DNA from: Hyphomicrobiales bacterium
GTDB taxonomy: Bacteria; Pseudomonadota; Alphaproteobacteria; Rhizobiales; Rhizobiaceae
Assembly: GCA_900473915.1 (NCBI GenBank)
Contig: UCNG01000008.1
Coordinates: 1-64,000, forward strand
Reading direction: 5' to 3'
Length of the DNA: 64,000 nt
Both the position numbers and the translations under genes were made by a program. The notes beneath the pieces are model-generated. The model was not told the origin of the DNA, ran no database searches, and saw nothing but the letters and a program-made list of their open reading frames with translations. Within the stretch, counting starts at the first letter, position 1. Each line of letters begins with the position of its first letter. This document shows positions 41,259 to 46,569 of the stretch, in pieces.

Positions 41259-44189
<2,931 letters not shown>

Positions 44190-44221
44190 AGTCTAGTATG
44201 CGAAGGATTTATTGCAACCTC

Positions 44222-44398
44222 TCACTGTGATTTCAACAAACCTTTATTTTGAAGAGATTTTTTAATCTGCTCATATCGCTTTTGTGCTGCGTCATCATTC
44301 ATTTTTGAATTTTGATTAGGGTGCTTCGGTAAACTAGCCGAATGTACAGAGCCTCCTATCGGCAGCAAAAAATTCATTTGCCTCTCGTTTCGAGCCAC
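44222..44398 (-). CDS. Small ORF coupled to the anti-phage deaminase
   Basis: A 58-residue frame starting GTG at 44398, whose first base is the last base of the deaminase stop TAG. Its ribosome site, AAGGAGGTAAGG, is excellent and lies inside the deaminase's last codons, so translation is coupled. The product starts MARNERQMNFLLPIGGSVHS and ends in a Lys/Gln-rich stretch (AAQKRYEQIKKSLQNKGLL) that should be helical. No family recognised. Internal ATGs at codons 8 and 33 are alternatives. Base composition is AT-rich like the deaminase gene, so the two probably arrived together. It is convergent with uvrB. Confidence 0.6.
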   Translation of the reverse strand: MARNERQMNFLLPIGGSVHSASLPKHPNQNSKMNDDAAQKRYEQIKKSLQNKGLLKSQ

Positions 44399-45903
44399 TA
44401 CCTTACCTCCTTCTCAAACACCGACAGCAGAACGAACTGTTCACGTGATACTAATGAGTCTAACGGCGGTGACGCCAAAGGACGCGCCTCTTTAGGAGCA
44501 TTCTTCTTTATCTTACCTGATTCTTTACGTTCAAGCTTTGATCCATAAACCCGGGAGAAACTTGATGGCGAAATCCCCTCATACTGTAGAAACGAAACCT
44601 TTCCCATTTCTTGCGGATTAGTGGTGATAGAATCAGAATGCAAGGTAAGAGCCAAACTCTTGGGATAAGGCTCTATATAGACGACAGACTGTATCCCGGA
44701 AGCGACAATATGACGAGCACAACTATGACAAGGAAACGTTGTCGTGAAAAGCTTGGAACCGATGATGCCGACTTTTCCTTGCCTTGCTACCGAAATGATC
44801 GCCTCCATCTCAGCATGAACCGCTCTTGAAAATTCGATCAGGTTCTTAACGTCAGTTTTCTTTAAATCGTCTTTAATTCGGCCATTCCCGCCGGGGGCAA
44901 GCTTCACTTCTATTTGATCGAACAATTTCTCTTTATAATGATCGTTCCAGCATTGGCATGCTTGCCATTTGTGGCAGCGATGATCGCCACTTCCATCATC
45001 AGCTCTATAAGCTCCACCACCAAACTTGGGCACATCATTCGCTCCCTGGCCAATGATTTCCCCTGCTTCTGATACGATAACAGCCCCCACTTGCCGTGAG
45101 AGGCACGCCGAATTTAGGGAAACCCCAGAAGCAGCCTGCATAGCGTATTCTTCGCGCGTCGGAGTTTGCACTCCGATACCAAAAACCAAGTTCAAGAACC
45201 GCCCCACAGATCCTTCAATTCGATCCACGTTATCGTCATCGTTTCGAAAGAAAATATCCGCATAATTCATCGTCTTTCGAACAGACTGACCCGAATTAGA
45301 ACCTTCGTCATAGTCAGCATCTTTAATTTTAGCCAAATAAGCAGAGCTCGATATTTGCTTCTCTAGCCGTGCTATCCTTTTATGCTCCGGAGAAAAAACC
45401 CCCACCAGCCAAAACAAATCTCCGTATACCTTTCGAAGTATAGAAACTTCCTCTGGATTTTTTAGCGAATCTATAATTGTACAGAATCTACGATCTTCTC
45501 CATTCTCCGAATTTTTTCGAGAACTATTTATTTTATCTATACTGAAAACAGCCAAAACATTATTCGAGTGTTTTTCTCGGAGTTTATTTCCCAAGCTTTG
45601 AAGCCGCTCAACACGATCAGAGGCTTTAGAATCGATCGCATGCTCACCGATACTTTGCGCTCGCTCATTAATAATATCACTAACTTTAATGATATCCGCT
45701 TGATAGCCAAAATTCTCTTCGATCTTCTGCTTTAGAATTTTCGCTACAGTCGTAGCTCCAGAGCCAATCGGGGCAACAATGCCGAAAACCAACTCTTGGG
45801 TGAAGCGTAATTCAGCCGGCGCCACCTCTTCACCGCCCTGCGCCTCGACCTCATTATTTTCGCTGGACACGCTATCAGCGTGCGTTATTAATTTCGCTCC
45901 CAC
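44398..45903 (-). CDS. Anti-phage dCTP deaminase (AvcD/DCD type)
   Basis: A 501-residue two-domain protein. The N-terminal half (residues ~35-240) is a P-loop nucleotide-kinase-like domain, ELVFGIVAPIGSGATTV at about 37-53, where Ala replaces the Walker A lysine. The C-terminal half is a cytidine/dCMP-deaminase domain: HAE at 363-365, PCHSC at 391-395, plus an extra Cys/His cluster HRCHKWQACQC near 308-318. This architecture is that of phage-defence enzymes that deaminate dCTP/dCMP and starve phage replication. Start GTG at 45903 has a strong GAGGGGG site; a GTG 18 codons upstream has none. AT-rich composition against a GC-rich background indicates transfer. Confidence 0.88.
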   Translation of the reverse strand: MGAKLITHADSVSSENNEVEAQGGEEVAPAELRFTQELVFGIVAPIGSGATTVAKILKQKIEENFGYQADIIKVSDIINERAQSIGEHAIDSKASDRVERLQSLGNKLREKHSNNVLAVFSIDKINSSRKNSENGEDRRFCTIIDSLKNPEEVSILRKVYGDLFWLVGVFSPEHKRIARLEKQISSSAYLAKIKDADYDEGSNSGQSVRKTMNYADIFFRNDDDNVDRIEGSVGRFLNLVFGIGVQTPTREEYAMQAASGVSLNSACLSRQVGAVIVSEAGEIIGQGANDVPKFGGGAYRADDGSGDHRCHKWQACQCWNDHYKEKLFDQIEVKLAPGGNGRIKDDLKKTDVKNLIEFSRAVHAEMEAIISVARQGKVGIIGSKLFTTTFPCHSCARHIVASGIQSVVYIEPYPKSLALTLHSDSITTNPQEMGKVSFLQYEGISPSSFSRVYGSKLERKESGKIKKNAPKEARPLASPPLDSLVSREQFVLLSVFEKEVR

Positions 45904-45986
45904 TTTATCCCCCTCGAAGAATCGCAGCTGCTTCTGGCAGTATAAATCACCATGCACTATGCAAAATCAGCTGCAAAATTTATTTT

Positions 45987-46033
45987 ACATTTCGGCTCTT
46001 ACAACCTTTGCGTGACAGCACGAGCCGAAATGT
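45987..46033. promoter_or_regulatory. 12-bp perfect inverted repeat upstream of the deaminase
   Basis: ACATTTCGGCTC (45987-45998) and GAGCCGAAATGT (46022-46033) are perfectly complementary with a 23-base loop, 84 bases before the deaminase start. As RNA it makes a strong hairpin. AvcD in Vibrio is inhibited by a small RNA (AvcI) encoded just upstream of avcD, so this may be the equivalent RNA element. An operator dyad or promoter-distal terminator are alternatives; no T-run follows on the minus strand. Confidence 0.45.
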
Positions 46034-46087
46034 CCAATTCGATTCCTATAAACGCATACCAAAAAGTTCATATCATTAAATGGGCCT

Positions 46088-46543
46088 TCACCGGCACTGC
46101 CCGCCGTTCATGATTCGATAGCCTGCACGGTCGGCTTCGCAACGGTTGGGGAAAGTACGCCTGTCATTGCCGCGTCGCGCGCAAACCGGCATATATTCGC
46201 GGGTGCAAGCGCCTGCGCCCGGTCTGCCGGGCCTGTTGCCCTGATGCGGCGGGCGTACCGGACCGACACTCGGTCCGCCCCAGCCGGAGCCAGGCCGCGA
46301 CGAGCATTCACCGCTTGAAACGACCCGGTAACCCTCTGCCCTCGCCTGGCATGAATTGCCGAAGGTCTTGCGCGAAGAGCCCCGCGTAGCGCAGACAGGC
46401 GCGTAGATCATCGGGCACATTTGCGGCTGCGACGGTCCGGGCCTCAGCGGTGGACGATGATCCACCCCGCCTTCCGCAACGCAACCGGCAAGAAGCAGCG
46501 CGCCCGCAAGCACGGCCAATTGTTTAAAACGATGAAATTGCAT
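46088..46543 (-). CDS. Lipoprotein with two Kazal-type inhibitor domains
   Basis: A 151-residue lipoprotein. A signal peptide with lipobox LLAGC (Cys21) is followed by two Kazal-like repeats: cysteines 43, 51, 65, 80 and 113, 121, 135, 150, with matching CPMIYAPVCATRG and CTREYMPVCARRG starts, linked by a Gly/Pro/Arg-rich stretch. Kazal domains inhibit serine proteases; each repeat here has four cysteines, a reduced form seen in bacteria. The ATG at 46543 has GGAGAGGAAA directly upstream and is preferred to an ATG four codons earlier. Confidence 0.87.
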   Translation of the reverse strand: MQFHRFKQLAVLAGALLLAGCVAEGGVDHRPPLRPGPSQPQMCPMIYAPVCATRGSSRKTFGNSCQARAEGYRVVSSGECSSRPGSGWGGPSVGPVRPPHQGNRPGRPGAGACTREYMPVCARRGNDRRTFPNRCEADRAGYRIMNGGQCR

Positions 46544-46569
46544 TTTCCTCTCCATTTGTCCCGAAACTT

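Follow-up and report, generated by a model that had tools for sequence, protein, structure and literature searches.

Introduction

AvcID and DCD, the anti-phage deaminase systems of Vibrio and E. coli, were reportedly first described in papers of 2022. Here we describe a relative found in a stretch of 64,000 nucleotides from a Hyphomicrobiales bacterium of the Rhizobiaceae (assembly GCA_900473915.1, contig UCNG01000008.1, positions 1 to 64,000 of the forward strand), a member of the Brucella/Ochrobactrum group; the stretch is called the window below. It lies in an AT-rich insert between uvrB and a Kazal-type lipoprotein gene and consists of two genes: one for a dCTP deaminase of the DCD/AvcD family and, directly behind it, one for a protein of 58 amino acids (aa).

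In the described systems AvcD is controlled by an RNA, AvcI, encoded upstream (PMC9455884, PMC10511110); as the second of these sources reports, the RNA holds the enzyme and is lost once host transcription stops. The window deaminase resembles AvcD in its membership of the NF041025 deaminase family, in the HAE and PCxxC motifs and in an apparently degenerate P-loop that lacks the Walker-A lysine, but where AvcID has the RNA upstream, the window has a conserved protein-coding gene downstream. The small protein itself invites comparison with two further systems through a short peptide close to its N-terminus. One is HdaA, which has a clamp-binding peptide of the form Q[LIM]x[LF]x[LF] in the same region in all 12 homologues checked in related genomes; HdaA is, however, a whole ATPase, whereas the small protein is predicted as one helix and its clamp binding is putative. 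The other is SocAB of Caulobacter, an alphaproteobacterial toxin-antitoxin system with a clamp-binding motif, as described in PMC9690074. In that system the SocB toxin itself binds the clamp, while here the motif stands on the partner of a nucleotide-depleting enzyme.

We lean slightly towards explaining the insert as a two-gene anti-phage module, in which the partner would be a dedicated regulator or adaptor of DCD with a peptide most likely contacting the beta sliding clamp. DCD itself is an enzyme of a known kind; what we put forward as new, and as a hypothesis, is its two-gene variant, in which the partner bears a clamp peptide. In the cited work, DCD activation is described for the RNA-controlled AvcID type. 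If the hypothesis is true, a clade with a protein partner and a replisome-binding signature would control or direct the depletion of nucleotides by a second route, and toxin-antitoxin logic would be joined to the replication clamp. Among the papers listed by a limited literature search in one open-access collection, which does not prove absence, there was none on uvrB as a defence hotspot, on DCD in Brucella, on DCD with a protein partner or on a link between DCD and the clamp.

The Deaminase Gene

The large gene occupies 44398..45957 on the minus strand and codes for 519 aa if read from the upstream GTG. The GTG at 45903 is the better start (44398..45903, minus strand, 501 aa): the Shine-Dalgarno-like sequence GAGGGGG stands 5 nt upstream of it, at 45909-45915, and a run of G precedes the same start in the B. 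daejeonensis locus (L015).

The protein reaches 475.4 bits against NF041025, "anti-phage dCTP deaminase" (cut-off 400), matching profile positions 1-437 of 437, and 546 bits (E 2.7e-164) against PADLOC dCTPase. It also matches Pfam dCMP_cyt_deam_1 with 64 bits, while ComEB gives 53 bits, below its cut-off of 219. Judged by these profiles, the large gene is, as the first-pass annotation of this DNA had proposed, a member of the anti-phage DCD family, and it does not group with the housekeeping dCMP deaminases. Both zinc-dependent deaminase motifs, HAEME and PCHSC, are intact, and their residues H, A, E and P, C, H, C are invariant across a 15-protein DCD alignment. The same annotation had read the architecture as kinase-like plus deaminase. 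The deaminase part is borne out; the kinase-like N-terminal part has only a weak match to AAA_18 (E 0.0022, 18.9 bits, below the cut-off of 29.4) and a P-loop-like GSGATT, GIVAPIGSGATT, without the Walker-A lysine. The Walker-A pattern GxxxxGK[ST] is absent from the first 160 residues in all 96 DCD frames examined, the window included.

With enteric and Vibrio plasmid DCDs aligned over 80% or more of its length, the protein shares 34-38% identity. Phage records gave 523 matches; of the 20 listed, 2 extend over no less than 80% of the protein (39% identity), and the other 18 are to the deaminase domain only. A viral source of the gene was considered and dropped: three pattern hits were obtained in viral contigs, and none is a relative.

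The Small Partner Gene

The two-gene unit noticed in the first-pass annotation is real, and that annotation gave no identity for its second member. This gene (44222..44398, minus strand) begins with a GTG that overlaps the DCD stop by one base and is preceded by a perfect Shine-Dalgarno sequence, AAGGAGG, at 44406-44412. Its distribution was followed in 99 fetched DCD-family loci (L numbers below; flanks of 1.5 kb for most and up to 6 kb for some), four of which had no DCD frame by the rule used (L131, L132, L133 and L177). The DCD tree has 88 rows, that is, the 96 DCD frames minus eight shorter than 440 aa (L028, L117, L118, L130, L154, L161, L176 and L178); a gammaproteobacterial search added L179-L181, which were left out of it.

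The small gene stands behind DCD in 25 of the 25 rows of one DCD clade, one copy being a fusion, and is absent from the remaining 63 rows. In this quick tree the SH-like support (SH-aLRT) is 82 for all 25 rows, 93 for 23 and 95 for 20. A hidden Markov model (HMM) seeded with four copies (window, L015, L016 and L017) was run against 3789 open reading frames (ORFs) around the DCD loci. It gave seven non-seed hits with E<1, all directly behind DCD on the same strand: L095, L140 and L018 below 0.001, and L020, L165, L026 and L023 at 0.07-0.83. Iteration reaches 10 members; for the other copies of the clade, position, length and the motif near the N-terminus decided the assignment. One motif filter, applied to the first 60 residues of downstream ORFs at all 96 loci, picks out 24 of the 25 loci inside the clade and 2 of the 71 outside it, and when restricted to the first 35 residues it keeps 22 inside and one outside. 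The two matches outside the clade are L145 and L129, the latter a 39-aa ORF unlike the family.

In the 25th copy, L138, DCD and the small gene form an in-frame fusion. There the reading frame of DCD is shifted at the 3' end and continues into the small gene; the fusion may be genuine or an artefact of sequencing.

All six pairs of small genes tested are under purifying selection (pN/pS 0.21-0.60, p from 5e-4 to 8e-12). As far as sequence comparison goes, this selection and the distribution together show the small gene to be a real coding, co-inherited second component that is restricted to a single DCD clade. The small protein has no match over the cut-off of any Pfam or PADLOC family. AlphaFold2 models of 13 copies consist of a low-confidence N-terminal half and one helix (mean predicted local distance difference test score, pLDDT, 74; predicted template modelling score 0.36). 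In the window the predicted helix comprises residues 31-51 (44246..44308, minus strand), with pLDDT block means of 76, 95 and 86 from residue 31 on. The partner is probably a regulator or adaptor of DCD.

The N-Terminal Peptide

Peptides that bind the clamp have the consensus QLxLF or QLxLxL according to PMC4564189, and the form QL(S/D)LF is given in PMC9690074. Residues 7-12 of the window small protein (44363..44380, minus strand) read QMNFLL, which is a conservative variant of this type of peptide and not the exact consensus. A strict form, Q-[LMIVF]-x-[LMIF]-x-[LFMIVY], occurs in 20 of the 25 clade copies (1.2% of shuffles), and a loose form with K or R allowed at position 2 in all 25 (2.3% of shuffles). 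Of the 24 partner ORFs, 18 have the hexapeptide in their first 60 residues, as do 62 of the 2825 other ORFs near the DCDs (p 2e-24, a value that overstates the case because homologous copies are not independent).

In all 12 genomes checked, the HdaA homologue begins with a peptide of this kind, for example RQIPLNL in B. daejeonensis (genome G004) and NQMPLQL in G210. These homologues are Hda-family hits below the family cut-off, and in two genomes the Hda-sized hit was chosen over a longer, DnaA-sized top hit. The small-protein peptide, written as Q-[LMI]-x-[LFM]-x-[LF], resembles the hexapeptides by which proteins bind the beta clamp, and we propose it as a putative one.

The sharpest check on the clamp link comes from a second DCD clade (15 rows with support 99, plus the fragment L130), which has a conserved but different and unrelated gene of 163-217 aa downstream of DCD in 14 of its 16 loci. 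The exact QLSLF or QLDLF occurs in 4 of the 14 proteins, the hexapeptide in three more, and neither in seven. In the first 100 residues of the 2825 other nearby ORFs the exact QL[SD]LF is never seen (p 4e-10). The four second-clade proteins that were scanned gave no Pfam family over the cut-off. The 14 loci are L114, L148, L160, L167 and 10 more.

Possible Mechanism and Alternative Explanations

In the two-gene module we favour, DCD would turn dCTP and dCMP into dUTP and dUMP during infection, as AvcD does; this step is suggested by family membership and by the AvcID work in PMC10511110. The helix of the small protein would contact DCD, and its peptide would contact another partner, most likely the clamp, DnaN. 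By holding DCD at the replisome, or by releasing it from there, the small protein would cause dCTP to be removed where phage DNA is copied. A wider form of the idea is doubtful, if quite conceivable: alphaproteobacterial anti-phage DCDs may be physically coupled to the replication clamp through two different clamp-peptide partners in two clades, which would replace the RNA switch of AvcID. DCD would then be parked on DnaN or recruited to it, and would strip dCTP at the forks or be unleashed when a phage seizes or dismantles the host replisome.

Several points weigh against the clamp-linked module. Much of the clade lies beyond the reach of the HMM: some half of its 25 copies were recognised by eye, the motif being one of the criteria, so that the motif count is partly circular. 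The support of the clade is modest, in a tree made without bootstrap. Five of the 25 copies have K or R at motif position 2 and so depart from QLxLxL. Two of the 16 second-clade loci are without a downstream gene, and half of the second-clade proteins (7 of 14) match none of the motif patterns used. Short motifs of this kind can also arise as strands for other contacts. Finally, an RNA may also exist at this locus, because the AvcD systems studied in PMC10511110 use an RNA inhibitor.

A rival reading takes the small protein as a plain antitoxin, which would bind DCD, inhibit it and disappear upon infection, and whose peptide would add a strand to DCD and be unrelated to the clamp. The overlap with the DCD stop, the strong Shine-Dalgarno sequence and the clade-restricted co-inheritance fit a toxin-antitoxin pair, and the in-frame fusion at L138 can be counted on the same side. 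AvcD overproduced without its inhibitor is described as causing filamentation and toxicity (PMC9455884) and as impairing genome replication without cell death (PMC10511110). However, an antitoxin of this kind leaves unexplained both the likeness of the peptide to the N-terminal peptide of HdaA and the canonical QL[SD]LF on a different partner in another DCD clade, and we consider it rather unlikely. A standard type III AvcID system, with the upstream RNA as antitoxin and the small ORF as incidental, would agree with the control of the known AvcD proteins, and a 12-bp hairpin does lie upstream of DCD (45987..46033, minus strand) in the window and in B. daejeonensis, where three stem substitutions keep the pairing (one compensatory pair and one G-U). 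Against this, a simple stem scan that took the best stem per locus saw nothing like this hairpin in the remaining 23 members of the clade, the upstream 184 nt folds little better than shuffled sequence (z -1.47; 21 of 200 shuffles as good), and Rfam has no match above chance, no check having been made that it includes an AvcI model. The small ORF, moreover, is clearly coding. On these grounds an AvcI-like RNA upstream was set aside as unconvincing, though an RNA may exist here, and the type III reading appears improbable.

That the large gene serves metabolism and not defence, for instance as a housekeeping dCMP deaminase, is hardly credible. The deaminase domain is indeed common to dCMP deaminases, but the DCD passes the cut-off of the anti-phage equivalog, such a match occurs in only 1 of 35 genomes of the genus, and another cargo of the same uvrB site is a defence reverse transcriptase similar to DRT2.

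On the AvcI side of the known systems, a small ORF precedes DCD in seven gammaproteobacterial loci (L119-L121 and L134-L137). In six of them its product has K-[LI]-x-W at the C-terminus, and the region may be coding as well as RNA. No such ORF is evident upstream in the added gammaproteobacterial loci L179 and L180. A shared origin of this ORF and the downstream small protein found little backing (hhalign probability 14%, weak HMM scores), despite a layout that looks similar by eye.

Age and History of the Locus

Between the window and B. daejeonensis the synonymous divergence (dS) is 0.59 for DCD, 0.36 for the small gene and 0.40-0.99 for five flanking genes, and the dN/dS of DCD is 0.08. The DCD value lies within the range of the flanks. 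In both lineages DCD thus looks as old as the genes around it, the insert is no recent arrival, and a recent transfer of DCD from one to the other is disfavoured.

Among the 99 fetched loci, uvrB lies near the 3' end of DCD in nine, always convergent (L015, L016, L017, L018, L024, L111, L150, L151 and L154), with a gap of about 1.4 kb in L017 and of 0.7 kb in L024. The uvrB-linkage label changes four times on the 88-row tree, from which the fragment L154 is left out, and at least three of the changes are forced by well-supported branches. The window, L015, L016, L017 and L018 make one clade, and so descent may explain these five uvrB-linked DCDs; L024, L111 and L150/L151 are separate.

The locus may have come down by vertical descent from the ancestor of the uvrB-linked clade (Brucella, Neorhizobium, Rhizobium and Aureimonas), with repeated loss or replacement and not separate insertions. 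To us this history seems nearly an even matter. The DCD divergence inside the flank range and the single clade of five favour it, as does the DRT2 gene of G034 and G015, which has diverged about as much as its flanks, with dS near saturation; the 561/567-aa pair of ORFs at the same site (described below) is far more diverged. On the other side, among the 35 genus genomes only B. daejeonensis has kept the locus, as has the window, so that many losses would be needed, and DCDs of other clades are also found at uvrB (L024, L111, L150 and L151). Such a history concerns only descent and does not exclude the two-gene clamp-linked module.

The Insert and the uvrB Site

The insert of 1.9 kb (44190..46087, strand not assigned) fills the interval from the uvrB stop codon to the Kazal gene and holds two minus-strand ORFs, DCD and the small gene. 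Its GC content is 0.439, against a mean of 0.589 (sd 0.019, minimum 0.541) for 584 windows of the same length elsewhere in the stretch (z -7.8). The AT-rich two-gene defence insert seen in the first-pass annotation is confirmed, down to its counts of 23 and 18 G+C in two 60-base lines of the insert and 39 in a uvrB line, which are exact. On the left, uvrB (41259..44189, plus strand; the name is that of the first-pass annotation) is convergent with DCD, and all 35 genus genomes have a conserved copy of its ORF; on the right is the gene labelled there as a Kazal-type lipoprotein (46088..46555, minus strand). In genomes G010 and G003 a different spacer, of 77 and 83 bp, takes the place of the insert.

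The claim that no integrase, tRNA or insertion sequence (IS) flanks the unit holds for tRNA, none of which was found in the 64-kb window; integrase and IS genes were not noticed in the ORF list of 40-50 kb, no dedicated search having been run. The ends of the insert share no direct stretch of 11 nt and no inverted stretch of 9 nt, and transposition or att repeats were rejected for it, its two ends being without such repeats.

Thirty-five genomes of the Brucella/Ochrobactrum genus were surveyed at this site, with categories assigned by reading the contents of the interval. Some match is present in 11 of them and a match over the NF041025 cut-off in one, B. daejeonensis, where the gene occupies the same site as in the window and is convergent with uvrB; the other 34 have none over the cut-off. 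The comparison of locus and junctions in these genomes agrees with a small insertion of present/absent type, but the position is not otherwise conserved, as had been supposed. It is variable across the genus and carries different cargoes in different species. Besides the single DCD, the interval is nearly empty (23-199 bp) in eight genomes, and in 14 it holds an oxidoreductase gene (an ORF of 337-346 aa with MKAVAYQ) and an HxlR-like ORF, these names being given by eye. A block of short-chain dehydrogenase, aldo-keto reductase, cupin and LysR-like genes, also named by eye, occupies four, and the same block appears in partial or extended form in two (G024 and G029). A 491-aa ORF is present in two genomes, an ORF of 561 or 567 aa in two and a 164-aa ORF in one; G018 is rearranged, and its right flank was not found. 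GC is below 0.45 in 6 of the 26 measurable gaps longer than 500 bp.

The 491-aa ORF is another AT-rich cargo of the site, a DRT2-like reverse transcriptase (L087:528-2003, minus strand, in G015; L064 in G034). The G015 copy, on which the scan was done, reaches 433 bits against PADLOC Drt2 and passes the cut-off of RVT_1, and the G034 copy is 77% identical to it. It is like the DCD insert as an AT-rich defence cargo, here of a single gene, with the same position and orientation relative to uvrB, and unlike it in that the enzyme is unrelated to DCD.

In G001 (L060) and G029 (L073) a second uvrB 3' end lies beyond the inserted ORF, aligned over 28 and 83 bp, which suggests site-specific integration at the uvrB 3' end. 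One of these two inserts holds the 164-aa ORF and the other a uracil-DNA-glycosylase-like ORF of 214 aa. The window insert has no uvrB 3'-end repeat of this kind.

As a recurring site of small defence genes, the uvrB 3' end would offer a handle for finding further systems. AT-rich ORFs of 567 aa (L091:654-2357, plus strand, in G033) and 561 aa (L094:15563-17248, minus strand, in G011) also occur there. They are 41% identical to each other, match no Pfam or PADLOC family and are candidates for an undescribed system.
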